Shown: positions 34,496 through 63,406 of the stretch, in pieces | Position numbering within the stretch: position 1 is the first letter of the stretch | Layout of the letters: each line of letters begins with the position of its first letter | NCBI RefSeq assembly: GCF_007655135.1 | Contig: NC_045132.1 | Location: 20,144,354 to 20,208,353, forward strand | Source of the DNA: Punica granatum | Taxonomy: Eukaryota > Streptophyta > Magnoliopsida > Myrtales > Lythraceae | Length of the DNA: 64,000 nucleotides | Direction: 5' to 3' | Made by a program: the position numbers and the translations under genes | Notes under the pieces: model-generated | Told to the model about the DNA's origin: nothing | Seen by the model: the letters and a program-made list of their open reading frames with translations, nothing else | Database searches by the model: none

Positions 34496-34901
34496 TGTCA
34501 CGGGCTTGCTATTTTATCTTGCGTTCCCTACCTGTGCGGCCCTAGAATCGCTATTCTAGGCAGCCTTTCCCTTTACAGAACTTCTAAAGAGAGAAACTAG
34601 AGAGAGAAGCTCTGGAGAATGATACTTGTATTGCTTTTTCAAGTGTGTGTACAAATGAGAAGGTGATGCCCCCTTATATAGGCACTCGGTATTTAATATA
34701 CATTCAACTACTTCTACCATCTACCGGTATAAATGCAATTATCCCAACTACCGATATTAATTACAGAAGACTCGGGAAACTTCTAGAAGGTTCGGGGACC
34801 GAGCCTCTCTAGTAGACTCCATCGCACGCATTCCCTAGCAAACCTCAACAACTTCGGGCTCCCTCGATCATCTTCGATGTTAAGAAGGTCCGTTCGTAAC
34901 A
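34496..34901 (-). repeat. Ty3 element 3' LTR
   Basis: 406 bp, about 5% different from the partner. It contains a perfect 7-bp inverted repeat (cctagaa...ttctagg, 34541-34560) and a tatataa motif on the minus strand. Confidence 0.95.
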
Positions 34902-34910
34902 TTCTCCCCT
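34902..34910 (-). other. Polypurine tract of the Ty3 element
   Basis: On the minus strand aggggagaa immediately precedes the 3' LTR. This is the expected primer for plus-strand DNA synthesis. Confidence 0.8.
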
Positions 34911-34960
34911 ACCTATTTTGGCGACGCCCTCGTCGCATCCTCTGCATAAAAAGCCTCGAT

Positions 34961-35282
34961 CTACTTTGTAAACTGCCACAAGTCTTCGGCAGGTTCCCAA
35001 CTTGCCTCACTCTCGGATAACCCCTTCCATTTGATGAGGTACTCATGCTTCAGCTTGCACCAACGTTTCCTCACGACCCGATCAGCCAAGATTTGCTCGA
35101 CATCCTGGTCGTATGCCGCCTTTGCCCCAATTGGTGTATGCGAGGACTCGGCCATGCTTGGATCTTCCTTGTCCTCTTGGAACAGCTTTAGCATACTCAC
35201 GTGGAATACCGGGTGGAGCTTTAATTTCTTAGGGAGTTCCACCTTATACGCCACGTTACCTACGCGTTGGAGGACTTGGAAT
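34961..35282 (-). pseudogene. Ty3 pol C-terminus: end of integrase and chromodomain
   Basis: The ORF carries the conserved post-integrase phrase LHPVFHVSMLK, then a chromodomain with YLIKWKG and ATWEP-like ASWEP. It ends at a stop 60 bp before the LTR. The usual first aromatic-cage region is variable. Chromodomains steer integration toward particular chromatin. This part is separated from the rest of integrase by the nested hAT-type element. Confidence 0.9.
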
Positions 35283-35838
35283 CATTGTTATCAGAACCGG
35301 ACCGGACCGGCCGGTTCGACCGGTCGGACAGGGAACCGGCACCAAGTCCGGTCCGGTTCGCCTAAAAATCGAAATGGCAGCTTTGAACCGCCGGACCCAT
35401 TGAACCGGCCGATTTTAAGCAAAATTTCATTAAACCGGTCGGTTCTATGGGTTTTTATGGGTTTCCTATTTAATGTAAAAATTGGTTGGTTGTGTAAAGA
35501 TTTGAACTCATGACCTCTTACTTTTCATATTAGCATACTACCAACCAAGCCACCACCACTTTTTTGTTCTTTTAACTCTACTTTTAAGTACTTATTAAAA
35601 TAAAATATTTATTTTGAAGTAAGAAATATTAAATATAGATACTTTCTTATACTATTGTTATATTTCTTTAAAATCATCATACTTTTATCTTAATTATCAT
35701 AATTTTTTTAATAATATGAATATTTATTTTATTTTAAATAAACGAGCGGTCCGACCCATCGAACCCCCGGTTGGACCCATAAACCCATGACCCCGTACCC
35801 CTTCCGGTTCATCATCCGGTCCGGTTCTGATAACACTG
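35283..35838. mobile_element. Nested hAT-type MITE, 556 bp, with 8-bp target duplication
   Basis: Termini are cattgttatcagaaccgg and, inverted, cagtgttatcagaaccgg; the inverted repeats are about 22 bp. cttggaat is duplicated exactly at 35275-35282 and 35839-35846; 8 bp is the hAT value. There is no transposase. The ends are rich in accgg phrases. A tRNA-like segment lies inside (about 35490-35580). It interrupts integrase of the Ty3 element and is therefore younger than it. Confidence 0.85.
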
Positions 35839-35846
35839 CTTGGAAT

Positions 35847-37205
35847 GGGCCCTCGTATCTCCGTGTAAGGCCCTTGTGCACGTCCTTGTGTCGGAGAATG
35901 TTGTGTAGCTTCACCAACACAAGGTCGCTCACACTATACTCGACGTGGCAATGCTTCTTATCGGCCCACTTCTTCATTCGCTTCGTCGCCCTGTTGAGGC
36001 AAGACCATGCCAAGTCCGCCTCTTCTTGCAAACTCTTGGCGAGCTTATACGCCGCTGGGCTATTCCCCTTGTAGCCCGATGCCACCATACTCGAGGTTGA
36101 TGACTGCTGGCCTGTCACAATCTCGAAAGGGACTTTTGCCGGTGGACTCGTTCCTTTGTAGGTTATAGGAGAATTGGGCTGCATCGATCATCATCGCCCA
36201 ATCCTTTTGTGTTGTGCTCAAGTAATGTCGTAGGTACAACTCCAAGAGTGCATTCACCCTCTCCGTTTGGCCGTCGGTTTAAGGATGGAGACTTGTAGAG
36301 AAGTTTAAGCTCGTGCCCAAAAGCTTGAAGAGCTCAGTCCAGAATCGCCCCGTGAATCGAGGATCATGATCACTCACTATCGTGGTCAGCACGACCCAGT
36401 ACTTGACCACGTGCTTCATGAAGAGTCGGGCTGCCTCTTTCGCTGGGCAGTCCTTCTTGGCCGGGATGAACGTCGCATACTTCGAGAATCGATCAACCAC
36501 GACCATCAACGTTTGACATCCCTCCGACTTCGGAAGGTTGACTATGAAATCCATCGAAACACTCTCCCAAGGACGCTCTGGAATGGGGAGAGGTTCGAGG
36601 AGTCCTACAGGCGACTTCTGCTCTATCTTGTCCTGTTGGCACACAAGACAAGTCTTCACGAAAGTCTCCACATCATCCCGCAGTTGGGGCCAATAGTACC
36701 GCTCTTCGACGAGTGCCAAAGTGCGGTGAATCCCCGAGTGACCAGCCCACTTTGAATCATGGCACTCCCGTAGAATCTCCCGCCTAAGGTTGTCATAGAG
36801 CGGCACGTAGACTCGACGACCCTTGGTGTAAACAAGGTCATCCTCGCACCAAAATTGCCGTGACTTCCCTTCGCGAGTGAGCTCCAAAAGAATGCGAACT
36901 TTAGCGCCATGCTGCAGCCCTTCTTTGATCCAACCCAATAATGGACTCTCAAGTCGACTGATCGCGGCGAGTTCCACCTGTCGACTCAGTGCATCAGCCA
37001 CAGCATTGGTCTTCCCTGGCTTATACTCCATCATGAAATCGAACTCGGCCAAGAAATCTTGCCAACGAGCTTGCTTCGGGGATAACTTCTTTTGCGTCTG
37101 GAAGTAACTCGTGGCAATATTGTCCGTCCTTACAACGAACTTTGAGCCCAAGAGATAGTGCCTCCAAGTCCGGAGACAATGCACCACCGCCGTCATTTCC
37201 TTCTC
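35847..37205 (-). pseudogene. Ty3 integrase with end of RNase H, broken
   Basis: The HHCC zinc-binding region is visible (HDSKWAGHSG through CLVCQQDK), then the catalytic core with an SMDFIVNLP Asp and an SDHDPRF Asp. The third acidic residue lies in the damaged part. A stop at 36279-36281 falls where the family normally has a Gln codon. A frame change occurs between about 36120 and 36140. The piece ends at the nested MITE. Confidence 0.9.
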
Positions 37206-38624
37206 TTAGACAGTATACCGCCGCTCCACGTCACTAAGCTTCCGGGACTCAAACACGATGGGGTGGCCATCTTGCATCAGCACCCCGCCGATAGCGAAAT
37301 CCGAGGCATCCGTCTCCACCTCAAACGACTTCTCATAACAAGGCAACGCGAGAACGGGCTCATCCATGACAACCCGCTTCAAGCGATCAAAAGCTGCTTG
37401 ACATTCGTTTGTCCACTCCCAGGCTCGAGCCTTCTTCAAGAGGTCCGTGAGTGGCACGGTGATGCTTGAGTAGCCCTAGATGAACCGTCGATAATAGTTG
37501 GCGAGACCAAGGAACGAACGCAACTCTGTCACCTTGGTTGGCGATTTGCACTCCATGATCGAGGCCACCTTCGATGGATCCATTCAGACCCAACCTCCAC
37601 CAACGATGTGGCCGAGGAAAGGGACTTCCCTCTTAGCGAATGCACACTTCTCCCTCTTCACGTACAAGGAGTTCTCCCGAAGCACCTCGAACACCTGTCT
37701 CAAGTGCTCGACGTGGTCCTCGAGTGACCGGCTATACACAACGATATCGTCAAGATAAACCACCACATATCGATCAAGGAACGGGTGGAGTACCTTATTC
37801 ATGAGGGTGCAAAAAGTGGCTGGTGCATTAGTCAGCCCAAAGGGCATGACGAGGAACTCGTAGGAACCGTATCGCGTTACGCATGCGGTCTCAGGCTCGT
37901 CCCCTTCCGCGATCCGCACTTGGTAGTACCCCGACCGCAGATCCAACTTAGAGAACCACTGAGCTTCCCCAAGCTGGTCAAAGAGATCCGCAATCAATGG
38001 TATAGGGTACTTGTTCTTGACCGTTAGCTTGTTCAGTGGCCAGTAGTCTATACACATCCGTAGCGATCCGTCGTGCTTCTTTTGGAAGAGCACCGGGGCA
38101 CCGAACGGGGCCTTCGAAGGTCCGACATAGCCAGCATCAAGCAACTCCTTGAACTGCCTCCTCAATTCCGCCAACTCTGGCGGTGCCATCCGGTAAGGAG
38201 CCATGGCGGGTGGCTTAGCATCGGGCACCAACTCGATCCGGTGATCCACCTCCCTCTTAGGTGGAAGCTTCTTCGGAAGTTCCGTCGGCATCACATCCTT
38301 GAAGGAATCGAGGACTTGGGCGACCTCCGCTAGTATGTTGTCTCCCGAGCCCGCATCCTCATCTACCTTCAAGGTCGCAAGGTACGTGACTTCTCCTTTC
38401 TGGATCCCTCGCTTCAGTTGCATGGCCGACAAGGTCTTTTGCCCATTTCCCCTCGACTGCTTGACTGGCACTACGCATTGACACTTAGCATCCAACACAC
38501 AGATGCAATCCGCAAATGGGACGAGTAGTGCTTCGATCCTGTCGAGGAAATCCATCCCAATAACAAAGTCGTAGTCATCAAGAGGGATTACCTCAATAGT
38601 TTCCTTTCCGCTCCACTGTCGGAT
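37206..38624 (-). pseudogene. Ty3 reverse transcriptase and RNase H, broken
   Basis: The reverse transcriptase contains [12 protein letters not shown] and the catalytic YLDD box ([11 protein letters not shown]). The RNase H start has the TDASDFAIGG Asp. In-frame stops lie at 37584-37586, 37476-37478 and 37206-37208. All segments stay in one frame, so the damage here is by substitution only. Confidence 0.93.
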
Positions 38625-40010
38625 TCAGATATCCACATCCTTAGCAACACCGCATGTCGGGACTTCTTCGAAATTCACCATCTTGAGCTGCCCCCTTGTC
38701 CTTTCAACACGAAGTCCCAGCTTCTTCGCGCCTTCTTCAGAGAGGAAGAGGTCCGATGCTCCTGTGTCAACGAGAGCACTAAGTGCCTTCCCAGCAATTT
38801 CAACATCCGCGAACATGAGCCCCTTCGACCGATTGGCCTTCCTGGTCGTAATGGAGCTAAGAATACGCAGCAAGCCCAACCGCGTCTCCTCTTCCTTTTC
38901 CTCATCGGCTTTCACCAACGCCGCGAGCTTGGCTTTGGTAGGGCATTCTTGAGCCATGTGCGGACCATCGCATAAGAAACACTTGAGCATCCGCTCATCC
39001 TTCCCCTTTGGCTTGCTCGACCCCGCCTTGTCCTTGAAAGTTGACTTGGTCGTCTTGCCGCCATCGGATCGGTGGGACTTCTCTTTATCTCCTCCACCTT
39101 TGGGCTTGCCCTTCCCTTTCGAGTCAGACTTACTTGATGAGCGGAATTCCACCAGCGACTCCGCCGTCGACATAGCCTTGTGCAGATCTTGCACACCGCG
39201 GCGTTGCAGCTCTTGCTTAGCCCACGGTTTCAGCCCATCCATGAACTGGAAGAAGGCTTCTTTGTCAGTCAGCGACGGAATCTGAAACATGAGTTCCGTG
39301 AACTGCCGTACATACTCCCGAAGTTCACCCTTATGCTCCAAGCGTCGAAGCTTGGCGCGAGCTTCATCCTCCGCATACTCAGGGTAGAACTGTTGGCGGA
39401 ATTCAGCCTTAAACTCCTCCCAAGTGTTGACCGTGTTGCCACTTCGGTCGTCGCACCTCCGACGCCACCATAGTAAAGCGACATCCACAAGGTACATGGA
39501 AACCATCCCCACACGGACAGCTTCGTCCTCTACTCCCGTCGCGCGGAAGTAGGTCTCCATACTCCATATGAAGTTGTCCGCGTCCTTGGCCACCCTAGTT
39601 CCCTTGAACTCCTTGGGCCTCGGGACATCTGGACGCGCGCTAAACTGACCCATGCCACCCTCATTTACACGAGTCCTCCGCACTTGCACGAGCTCGGCCC
39701 TGAGCTCATCGATCTGAGCACGCATGGCCTAGACAAGGGCTTCCAGCATCTCGTCCCGCTTGGTCAGCTCGTCCACTGCAATGTTCAAGGCGCCTTGCAT
39801 ACCCTCTTGAAGCTCCTCCAAGTCCGAGCGGAGCTCTTCCATGCCCTTGGACGCGTCCTCGGTCTTGCCTTGGATGTCCGCCATGACAGCCTCCATCTTT
39901 GTCATGCGGCCCTCAAACGAACTTAGTGGATCCCTCGAGCTTTCCCGCTGCTTCTTGGACTTTGCCCTCGTCTCATCGATCACCACCTTCGATCGGTTAG
40001 AGGTTGCCAT
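38625..40010 (-). pseudogene. Ty3 gag and aspartic protease, broken
   Basis: Starts at the MATSNRSK methionine (40010). Gag includes the typical retrotransposon gag block (EEFKAEFRQQFYPE), a CX2CX4HX4C zinc knuckle and a protease with the DTGAS active-site motif. A stop interrupts it at 39729-39731, and it ends at 38625-38627. Single-frame gag-pol organisation is evident. Confidence 0.92.
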
Positions 40011-40024
40011 CACCTTAGACCTTC

Positions 40025-40036
40025 GCTCTGATACCA
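40025..40036 (-). other. Primer-binding site of the Ty3 element (initiator Met tRNA)
   Basis: Minus-strand tggtatcagagc, two bases from the 5' LTR, complements the 3' end of plant initiator methionine tRNA. Confidence 0.9.
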
Positions 40037-40038
40037 CT

Positions 40039-40444
40039 TGTCACGGGCTTGCTATTTTATCTAGCGTTCCCTACCCCTGCGACCCTAGAATCGCTATTCT
40101 AGGCAGCCATTCCCTTCACAGAACTTCTAGAGAGAGAAATTAGAGAGATAAGCTCTGGAGAATGATACTTGTATTGCTTTTTCAAGTGTGTATACAAATG
40201 AGAAGGTGAGGCCCCCTTATATAGGCACTCGGTATTTAATGTACATCCAACTACTTCTACCATCTATCGGTATAAATGCAATTATCTCAACTACCGATAT
40301 TAATTACAGAAGACTCGGGAAACTTCTCGAAGGTTCGGGGACCGAGGCTCTCTAGTAGACTTCATCGCACGCATTCCCTAGCAAACCTCAACAACTTCGG
40401 GCTCCCTCGATCATCTTCGATGTTAGGAAGGTCTGTTCGTAACA
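40039..40444 (-). repeat. Ty3 element 5' LTR
   Basis: 406 bp. A minus-strand tatataa (40218-40224) is the likely core promoter, and the 7-bp inverted repeat (40084-40103) is conserved. Confidence 0.95.
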
Positions 40445-54201: not shown

Positions 54202-55737
54202 TATATATCTCAATTACTCTTCTTATTCATTATTTGCTCTTCTCGAGGTGGTTGGAAAATGTTTTCTTATTCCAAGTTGAATATAATTCAACACGGCAGG
54301 ACCGTGGACTAGTATATACATATATTAATATTCGACACAGTTAAACCGTCTATATCTAACATAAATGAGAAATAAACCAACGTGAAGGTTCAGATAATTT
54401 CAGTACTTTTTTTTCCATAATTAAGTCTTCGGATTCCAATTTTATGTATGAAAAAAATTCATTATTAGAAGAGTTTTACCTTTATTGGACTAACCAGCTC
54501 AAAGCCAAATTAATCATATCCATAGAATTTTCGGACATGGTGCACAACACAAAAAAAAAAAAAGGAAAAGAATAGGGGTTGCGGCATTTATGAGAAAATG
54601 GGCCTTCTACTTAGACTGTCCAATTGGGGCTACAGCTTTCCATTATTTCGTGAAACATAGAGATTGTTCTACCTCACAAACAATTGGAACATGAGATGTT
54701 CAAAGTTGACTTCCCCATCAACTTACATTACCAATATCTTCATTCTAAACTAGTCTGTACGAGGGACATATATACAGACCCGGCATGTAAACTACACCAG
54801 GATTAGTCGGTTCGTGAGATCGACTGTTCATTATGCTATGCATGTACTGACTGATATAGTGGATTACACACATTTGTTGTATGTCGATCCACTTAATATT
54901 GAGTTCGGCGAAGTACGTACATTAACCCTTCAGAAAAATCAAAAGAAGGTTATGTATCTCTTTTTAGGAAAGATTGACTGTAATACGTTTAGCATATGTA
55001 TTTGTTTTTTCGGGCAACATAGTATATGTATTTTCATCTTCCTACATGTTTTTTTTTTCCGTTTTGAATAACACTAAATTTCCTAGGTTTATTTGAGACG
55101 AGTCTAATCTTCCCCGGTTCGATTCAAACAAGTTAGCTACTTCATACCTAACATTTATGGCAATTATTTCTCACAGCTGCTAATAAACTCCGATGCGTCT
55201 AGCCGGCCACTTCTCAAAGTCCTGCCTTCAACGTCCAATGCGTTAACAGATACTAAAAGCACATTCCTACCGGAAAATACTAAAAGTACGTAGTATACCG
55301 TATAAAAAAAACTAAAAGTACGTAAATTTATAACTATTGAAAAAACAAAAACATGATAGGACTTTCTCTTGAGGTAAAAAAAAAAAAAACACTTGTTTGG
55401 TTAGCTAGCATTTGGTTGGTTTGACCATATTACATAGTAATTATGTCCGAGCTCCAGAAGCAAAAGCACGTACGATTTCACCAAGACATCAAGACCGAGA
55501 GAGGAAATGCTGAGGCCAATTTCACAGATCGAAAGAATTTAAAAAATTAGCCTACTAAAATAGCACACTCTCGTATTAAACATCTTAAAATTAAATAAGC
55601 TGAAGGCGTGCACGCTAATGGATTGTCCATATTTTAAATAAGTTCCTCCATCACTATGTGGACTACCACGACACTGATTCCATAGCAAATTAGTAGGTGA
55701 AATTCCCATGGAAAACTTGTGCATTAACCCAGAAATT
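54202..55737. other. Intergenic stretch, no gene seen
   Basis: Short unstructured ORFs only (longest 85 codons at 54814-55071). Confidence 0.4.
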
Positions 55738-55752
55738 AAAATTTCCATGCAA

Positions 55753-55933
55753 CCAACATGATTGGTTCAAATGATTAGGCGCTGACTTTCCTTAAGTAAG
55801 GTCTCGGGTTCGAGTCTTATAAATAGAGAAAATCCATACTAAAAGAGTTTTACATCATTAGTAGATTGACCTGGCTTGAACTGAATTAGTCAAGACTAAA
55901 TAGGTTTCCGGATACCAGAATATACACACACAA
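55753..55933 (+). mobile_element. SINE-like family B, complete copy with 15-bp target duplication
   Basis: Reference copy for B. Forward: head gattggttcaaatgattagg (box A region), gtctcgggttcgagtctta (box B GGTTCGANNC), body with gtagattgacctggcttgaa, and tail ggataccag..acacacacaaa. The 15 bases aaaatttccatgcaa flank it exactly (55738-55752 and 55934-55948). Confidence 0.88.
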
Positions 55934-55948
55934 AAAATTTCCATGCAA

Positions 55949-56097
55949 AAAGGATGTAGCGCACGCTCTCATTTAGTGACCAAAAGGTCTCAGGTTTAAT
56001 ACTCATGTGTGGCTACCCATATCCATTTATTAGATATTTAAGATTTTCATTTCATTATTGTACTTGATCAATGGGTTTCCATTGTAATAAAAAAAAA
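55949..56097 (+). repeat. SINE-like family A copy abutting the family B target duplication
   Basis: Forward: head gatgtagcgcacgctctcat, box B ctcaggtttaatactcat, tail ccattgtaataaaaaaaaa. It starts right after the downstream duplication of the B copy. Confidence 0.75.
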
Positions 56098-56104
56098 TTA
56101 AGGT

Positions 56105-56275
56105 AGGTACTGATATGGATTGATTTAGGTGGTTTGAAACTTCTTTTTCTATAAATAAAATTTTGGATCCAAAATTTGTGAATGGAGAAAATTAATGATT
56201 CAAAGAGTTTTATCTTTTAGTGGATTGATCCGATTTTGATTTGAATTAGGTGGAACTCATTAAAATTCTGAAGGT
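56105..56275 (+). repeat. SINE-like family B, diverged copy
   Basis: Forward: gtgaatggagaaaattaatg, agagttttatcttttagtgg and the gatttgaattagg segment follow the family B order. It is the third SINE in a row. Confidence 0.45.
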
Positions 56276-60935: not shown

Positions 60936-62099
60936 TGGAAATGTGCTGCGCATCGAAATACAACCACATGTCAAAGAAATAATTAATGGCAGATGAGGAG
61001 GAGAGGAGGATATATAAATGACAACTGTTTGATGGTCCTTACCCACACACACACAACATAAACATTATATGTATTCGTAGAGAATTGAAGTGTGTACAGG
61101 TTAGTGCCAGATTTCTGGGAGACGCGGTCGTTCGGACTTGTTATAAATGCCATACGGATGTAGCCAATTCTCCATTGTTGTTTCCGGTTAATTATACATT
61201 TCTTACAAACAATTCAGTTTTGAAAATAGACTAGAAATGGAAAAAGGGAAAAGGTTTACGAACTTCAATCCCGATTGGGAGGGATCTCTAGAGATTTCCA
61301 ATGACTTATCGAGGCACAATTTCTTTTAGATTTTAGTGTTTATAAACTTTTGGCTCGAGAAAAGAGTTAACGCATCTGCACTCTAATTACATACAAAACT
61401 TTAAGGTTTTGAATTCGATTATTTTTTTTTTGGATTTTCGTCACACATCTATATATAATATATAATGTTAATACGAAGAGAGAGAATGATTGTGGTTTCG
61501 ATAAGTGTTACTCTTGTCTTCATCAGAATCTGCCATGTGTTACCTTTGATTTCTCTAAATCCCACAACGTGGCATCTTCTCAACCCTTATTAATGCAAAC
61601 AAATTGATCTCCATATGGCATCTTCTATACCCTCTTTACTACAAGAATTGGTGGATTTCAAAATTAGTGCGATACATGAATAAATATAATTTTGTAAATT
61701 CAATTTATTAATTAATTCCACTTTTTAATATTTGGTTCAACAAGTAAATCGATACTGACTAGAATATCTAAAAAAAATTTGCCAACATCAAATAAACTCA
61801 AAGATTAAAAAAATATAATACAAATAAATTGATTGAAGAATTTGCTTAATTTAGAAATAAATGTAATCTTTTCAAATTCAATTAATTAAATTATTTTCTT
61901 TTCCAATTTCCAATGTTACAAATGCTTGATTACATTCTTAAAACTATAATTGGAATATTTAAAGGCTATTACAAGTTCTATGTTAATATTAAATCCACTT
62001 AGAAGTTCAAAGTGATGCTTATGAATTTATTTATTAAAAAAAGATATTGAAATATTTTTAAAAAAAGTATATTGAAATATTCTTGTAATCAAATTTAAT
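60936..62099. other. Intergenic stretch, no gene seen
   Basis: AT-rich. From about 61640 on it resembles the tandem units that follow (ttccaatgttacaaatgctt phrase near 61908), so an older, shorter repeat unit may be present. Confidence 0.4.
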
Positions 62100-62506
62100 T
62101 TTTCAATTTAAAAAGGGGTATTGAAATATTTTTCAAAAAATTTCATGCAAGTAATTTTACTTACATTATTGAAATCGCAAGGACCTTAGAAAAAAATAGT
62201 ACAATTAAATTAATCTAAGAATTTGTACCATTTAAAAATAAATATGTCTTTTCAAATTTGATTAATTAGGATTGGTTTCTTTTCTCATTTTCCATTTCTA
62301 CAATGCTTAATTATACTCTTGAAATTGTAGTTGGATTATTTAGTTCAAAAATGATGTTGAAATACATATTGAAAATTTTTCATACAAGTAATTACTTACA
62401 AAATTAAAATTATAGGGAGTTTTGGAACACTCAATAACCATTACACGTTATGTATTAATATTAATTACACTTAGAAATAAAAATGATGCTAAAAAGAATC
62501 GATTTA

Positions 62507-62605
62507 TTTTTCGATGTGAACCCTCGTATCTGGAAGCCCAATTGGGCCCAAACTAATTTAGCCAAGGCAGGTCAGTCCACTAAAGGGTAAAACTCCCCCA
62601 TTATG
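62507..62605 (-). repeat. SINE-like family B, truncated copy in tandem unit 1
   Basis: Reverse: tcgatgtgaaccctcgtatc, cccaattgggcccaaacta, then a break after actccccca. The tRNA-like head is deleted. Confidence 0.75.
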
Positions 62606-63218
62606 GATTAAAATTGATTTATTTAAAAGTTCATAAAACGAATGGAATAAATTTAGTTTCTATGTTTATCAAATTTACTTAAATTTGAAACTTCAATTCT
62701 ATGAGTGGTTTACTTTTCAGTGAGCTACAAGTGACTTATTTTTATTTTTATTTTTATTTCTAATTTTCAATTCCACGAGCTTAAACATATTCTTGAAATT
62801 AAATTAAATTTTTCAATTTAAAAAGGATATTGAAATATTTTTTAAAAATTTCCAAGCAAGTAATTATACTTACATTATTGAAATCGCAAGGATCTTGGAA
62901 AAAAATCATACAAGTAAATTACTCTAAGAATTCATACGATTTAGAAATATCTATATCTTTTCAAATTCGATTAATTAGAAATAGTTTCTTTTTCCATTTT
63001 CCAATTCTACAAATGCTTAATTATACTCTTCAAATCGTAATTGGATTATTTAGTTTAAAAGGGATGTTGAAATACTTTTTAAAACTTTTCACGTAAGTAA
63101 TTACTTACAAAATTAATTGTAATTGTAAGGATTTTTGGAATATTAAATAACCATTACATGTTTTGTATCAATATTTATTGCACTTAGAAATAAAAATGAT
63201 GTTATGAGAATTGATTTC

Positions 63219-63406
63219 CATTTTTTCGGTGTTAACCCTAGTATCTGAAAGCTCAATTAGGCCTGCCTAATCCAGTAAAGCCGGATCGGCCCATTACGGG
63301 GTAAAGCTCTCCTACGTAAATTTTCTACATTCACAAAGAATAGAATCAGAGACCTTATTTAAAAAGAACGAGTATCGAACCGCTTAAATCAATCCATGAT
63401 GGTTAA
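63219..63406 (-). mobile_element. SINE-like family B, complete copy in tandem unit 2, with 13-bp target duplication
   Basis: Reverse: tttttcggtgttaacccta, gcctgcctaatccag, head with gagaccttatttaaa and cgaaccgcttaaatc. gagaattgatttc lies at 63206-63218 and 63407-63419. Same location as the truncated copy in unit 1. Confidence 0.85.

Follow-up and report, generated by a model that had tools for sequence, protein, structure and literature searches.

The element at positions 55738-55948 of the window, the whole 64,000-nucleotide stretch of pomegranate DNA analysed here, raises the question of what kind of mobile sequence it is, how it came to lie between two copies of one short direct repeat, and whether the family to which it belongs is still moving. 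A preliminary description, made from the letters of the window, had called it one of at least ten copies of a second tRNA-derived SINE family (family B), with a good box B, an exact 15-bp duplication and a body unlike that of another SINE family (family A) active in the same neighbourhoods. We used profile searches of the window and genome, comparisons with tRNA genes and shuffled controls to investigate these claims. We find that 55738-55948 is a complete SINE insertion with an exact 15-nt target-site duplication (TSD), RNA polymerase III (Pol III) boxes and a short A-tail. The copy is a fossil, unexceptional and well preserved, of a plant SINE of the tRNA type that ends in an A-tail.

Anatomy of the insertion

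The range given in the preliminary description encloses exactly both copies of the TSD, and the duplication is, as had been claimed, exact and situated at both ends of the element (Table 1). The two copies constitute the sole direct repeat of at least 12 nt detected in 55700-56110. The borders of the element overlap slightly with the duplication: the last A of the 5' copy (55752) could equally be base 1 of the element, and the last four A of the tail run are also part of the 3' copy. The TSD within the range of about 8-20 nt, the simple-repeat tail and the lack of terminal inverted repeats are all as in tRNA-type plant SINEs.

Table 1. Features of the family B copy and of the elements adjoining it, in window coordinates
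Feature	Position	Strand	Remarks
5' TSD copy AAAATTTCCATGCAA, 15 nt	55738-55752	+	preceded by TT (TT/AAAA)
SINE body of family B (model positions 1-176), about 176 nt	55752-55927	+	family B profile match
Box A TGGTTCAAATG	55763-55773	+	fits TRGYNNARNNG
Box B GGTTCGAGTC, intact	55807-55816	+	starts 44 nt after box A start
3' block of body, 46 nt	55873-55918	+	putatively Angio-domain-like
Tail	55928-55937	+	ACAC, then six A at 55932-55937
3' TSD copy, 15 nt	55934-55948	+	exact
Copy from another SINE-like family, assumed to be family A	55949-56103	+	adjoins 3' TSD of the family B copy
Another family B copy, more decayed, model positions 6-164	56114-56275	+	just past the family A copy; profile match

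The head and its source

Box A was sought with the pattern TRGYNNARNNG, which is present in the family B consensus; the short form RVTGG is absent from it. In the consensus, box A (TGGTTCAAGCG) stands at position 13 and box B at position 57, so that their starts are 44 nt apart, and both boxes at such a spacing arose in only 4 of 20,000 shuffles of the consensus. This bears out a head with a tRNA-type promoter and a good box B. Among the 70 near full-length copies, box A is intact in 38 and the GTTCRA core in 37. The AnnoSINE criterion, as worded in the available part of its description (PMC8825457), asks for a box A and a box B separated by 25-50 nt, and the 44 nt of both the consensus and the window copy falls in that range.

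An alternative is that a head of this kind came from another Pol III gene, or arose by convergence, rather than from a tRNA. It draws on the failure of direct tRNA detection: Rfam searches of nine family B copies at E<=10 gave five weak matches, none of them to a tRNA. Across the whole window, ARAGORN and Rfam at its gathering threshold likewise returned no match. Folding of the consensus head gives hairpins rather than a cloverleaf, and their stability exceeds that of shuffled heads only slightly, 15 of 200 shuffles being at least as stable. Against this alternative stand the two boxes at their 44-nt spacing and a comparison of the head with 20 and then 32 tRNA genes (28 distinct; Arg, Asn, Cys, Ile, Leu, Lys, Ser and Thr), in which Ile-TAT was the best of the 32, with a score that none of 300 shuffled heads equaled (z 5.9). 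Furthermore, some SINEs have no detectable homology to their source RNA, according to the AnnoSINE authors (PMC8825457, in the part available). We therefore regard a non-tRNA origin as unlikely, even though no single tRNA stands decisively apart, and favor the tRNA-type reading.

The naming of the source tRNA, which the preliminary description had proposed as a check, yielded a candidate: the head aligns best with Ile-TAT, and the next genes, Arg-TCG (z 5.0) and Lys-TTT (z 4.8), follow with no decisive margin among the eight amino acids compared, so that Ile-TAT may serve as a lead on the source rather than as the answer. The two Ile genes align to the head differently, each with several gaps. 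Class II tRNAs, suspected from the D-arm, are unlikely sources, with ten Leu and two Ser genes reaching z of only 0.3 to 2.0.

Target-site duplications and the mode of insertion

The window and the fetched loci together yielded 92 family B matches, of which the 70 near full-length ones were used and the other 22 excluded from the counts. The preliminary description had made its case depend in part on duplications at copies elsewhere, and these are present: a TSD score of at least 10 was reached by 38 of the 70 true flank pairs versus 18 of 1050 mispaired flanks serving as control, with the share in the whole family probably lower, as most of the 70 are the genome's best matches. The remaining 32 show no TSD at this score. 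At a score of at least 15, the counts are 15 of 70 true pairs, including the window copy, versus 2 of 1050. The duplications tend to begin in A-rich sequence: 24 of the 38 start at Y/AA, versus 5.0% of 3218 flank positions, a count biased upward by matches that can extend into the A-tail, even though the As in question are the target's own 5' copy; 22 of the 38 start with AAA, versus 4.8% of the same positions. Starts of the Y/AA type are what L1-type target-primed reverse transcription would be expected to leave. Runs of A follow the body in most of the family B flanks inspected.

The clearest single case is a locus that shows its site both before and after insertion (L094:1-341, minus strand). 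Here, a young family B copy interrupts an old one at its box B region, the same 16-nt TSD, AAAGTCTCAGCTTCAA, lies on both sides of the young copy, and the old copy continues across the insert (model positions 2-61, then 48-121).

Two further explanations of the repeat at 55738-55948 fare far worse than a non-tRNA head. That its 15 nt match by chance, with the element having been brought in by segmental duplication, has some precedent in the window, where several stretches of duplicated DNA carry family B copies; for instance, 62077-62598 and 62787-63312 are 83% alike in direct order, with a family B copy on each side of the duplication. However, the repeat sits exactly at both ends of the element, its score was equaled by only the two mispairings noted above, and a genome search with 55738-55948 listed 41 other matches at 73-88% identity, none reaching both ends of the query, all of which makes this explanation very improbable. 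Equally remote is a MITE, or another small transposon of the DNA type, with a duplication made by transposase. Such an element would share the small size, the dispersal and the flanking direct repeat, but is opposed by the A-tail and Pol III boxes, by the total absence of inverted repeat pairs in 55700-56110 and by TSDs whose length is not fixed but ranges over 10-22 nt in the 38 copies.

We are thus highly confident that this is the fossil of a tRNA-type SINE, equipped with an A-tail and with boxes A and B for Pol III, that was inserted, most likely in the L1-type manner, with a 15-nt duplication and subsequently decayed mainly by C>T and G>A changes. The anatomy, the duplication, the dispersal, the empty site of the sister copy at L094 and the A-rich TSD starts are direct observations. 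The steps linking them would be as follows. Family B RNA would have been made by Pol III and copied into DNA where an A-rich target, TT/AAAA, had been nicked, by a machinery most likely borrowed from a poly(A)-recognising LINE of the L1 clade. On insertion, 15 nt of the target would have been duplicated, and the copy would then have decayed mainly through C>T and G>A changes, with cytosine methylation as the putative cause. A partnership with L1-clade LINEs has been proposed for poly(A)-ending plant SINEs (PMC3747384, in the part available).

Age and decay

The window copy differs from the 70-copy consensus at 35 of 175 sites (20%), with C>T or G>A accounting for 28 of the 35. The same asymmetry pervades the 70 copies, in which 1766 of 6471 C/G sites (27%) differ versus 537 of 5715 A/T sites (9.4%); transitions affect 19-27% of C/G sites, alike in CG, CHG and CHH contexts, versus 5.7% of A/T sites. 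Judged from these substitutions, the decay of C/G sites would fit heavy cytosine methylation, with the qualification that a general AT-ward mutation would leave the same pattern. At A/T sites the window copy is only 4.8% off the consensus, and since such sites dominate the TSD, an exact TSD on a copy that is 20% diverged is unsurprising. The case shows, more generally, that a SINE of this kind is younger than its overall divergence suggests where C/G decay dominates.

A small young subfamily comprises 11 sequences at 10 loci, with a mean distance of 3.7% from their own consensus; one of its members (L088) has at least 11 further places at 91% identity or more among the 40 candidates scored, giving a subfamily of about 12 places. 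The window copy falls outside it, being 26% from its consensus. Hence the description of the family as active does not hold for the window copy, with its 20% divergence, the young subfamily lying elsewhere. An early idea that the family is uniformly ancient, to which the nearest copy, at 78% identity, had given rise, is contradicted by the same subfamily.

Copy number and distribution

A family B profile made from 40 copies, the window copy among them, gave 17 matches in the 64-kb window at E<1e-6, in agreement with the at least ten copies first noted, 18 at E<1e-3 and one further at 0.0068. Against a genome sample of 20 stretches of 10 kb (200 kb) from contigs C1 and C2, it gave 7 matches at E<1e-3, which fall in 4 of the 20 stretches, one of these holding four; the same 200 kb with letters reversed gave none at E<1. 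Scaling up yields about 11,000 matches genome-wide, a figure with a wide error as the sample is small, clustered and drawn from two chromosomes, and the genome probably holds thousands of family B copies. The window is about 8 times richer in family B than the sample. A genome search with the consensus gave 3755 first-look candidates, of which 40 were scored, and the family is dispersed over contigs C1 to C8.

Some copies are found in local clusters. Three family B matches follow one another on one strand within less than 600 bases at L064:2697-3286, in the otherwise sparse random sample. At L033:248-554 (minus strand), tandem copies have in common an A-run and a 5' flank, CTCAT...TTAGCAACATT, and this unit seems to have been duplicated together with its flank.

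A different arrangement is seen at L090:59-460, where two young copies that are 95.9% alike stand in a row, the first devoid of an A-tail. The pair is flanked by one 21-nt repeat, at positions 59 and 440, and the monomers taken singly have no good TSD (scores 5 and 7); the whole has the appearance of a fused transcript inserted in one step. A search with the junction gave 62 matches from 40 scored candidates, among which only the L090 locus spans it. As far as can be seen among these candidates, the dimer is a single event that founded no family, and the notion of a dimeric family B was accordingly rejected. A literature search for dimeric plant SINEs gave nothing relevant among the best matches listed.

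Family A and its adjacency to family B

The repeat at 55949-56103, whose family we assume to be the family A of the preliminary description, starts right after the 3' TSD of the window copy, has a box-B-like stretch and ends in TTGTAATAAAAAA; a genome search lists it at at least 39 other places. A family A model built from seven window copies gave 17 matches in the window and 3 in the 200-kb sample. With A so defined, the two families are indeed distinct in body: no A match overlaps a B match in the window at E<=1e-3, and no A-B pair was seen among the window self-matches at E<=1e-6.

That the two occupy the same neighbourhoods is also upheld, as 5 of the 18 window B matches lie at most 30 nt from an A match, versus means of 0.26 and 0.31 when placed at random anywhere or within 5 kb, with none of 5000 trials reaching five in either scheme. 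One A copy is counted in two of these five pairs. Four of the pairs have the same orientation, and the one at 52.5 kb is tail to tail. An A match is also present in the short flanks of 3 of the 59 fetched B loci, always in the orientation of B. The simplest reading of the abutting copies is that A-tails are good L1-type targets. However, tails cannot explain every pair, because B lies 5' of A at 55.95 kb. A broader proposal, namely that each of the two unrelated families inserts preferentially into the A-tails of the other, building composite chains and offering a route to fused dimeric SINEs like that at L090, is tentative and in our estimate probably incorrect.

Relationship to known plant SINEs

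The 3' block of the body presumably resembles the Angio-domain of AngioSINEs, and family B further shares with these elements an angiosperm host, a tRNA-type head and an A-tail. The Angio-domain is a 37-bp 3' domain found in many angiosperm SINEs, those of the AngioSINE superfamily (Seibt, Schmidt and Heitkam 2020, as cited in the available part of PMC9033089); a search for its letters in literature text gave only unrelated matches among those listed. Family B also resembles the poly(A)-ending, L1-mobilised plant SINEs, as the accessible text of PMC3747384 describes them, in its Pol III boxes, A-tail and variable TSDs in A-rich sites, and differs from them in that its own L1 partner is a putative one. 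Au and p-SINE are, like family B, plant SINEs of the Pol III type; in contrast to family B, which ends in A, these finish with poly(T) or with a short run of T (PMC3747384, same text).

No named pomegranate SINE family was found in the literature within reach, which excludes most subscription papers, and nothing was found there for Myrtales and SINE. The paper on the 'Tunisia' genome (PMC7061868) uses neither 'SINE' nor 'short interspersed' in its main text, and the element tally in the accessible part of the 'Sanbai' genome paper gives only LTR and DNA types. Family B represents a broadly familiar class of plant repeats, and is apparently without a name. Naming and masking it would improve annotation of this crop genome, and the young subfamily could supply insertion markers.

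Other elements of the window include 406-bp direct repeats at 34496-34901 and 40039-40444, which are 95% alike and enclose matches to gag, reverse transcriptase and integrase of the Ty3 type on the minus strand; 34496-40444 is probably an LTR retrotransposon. A minus-strand open frame at 22016-23230 matches a B-box zinc finger, and further pieces of the window match plant LOB families.
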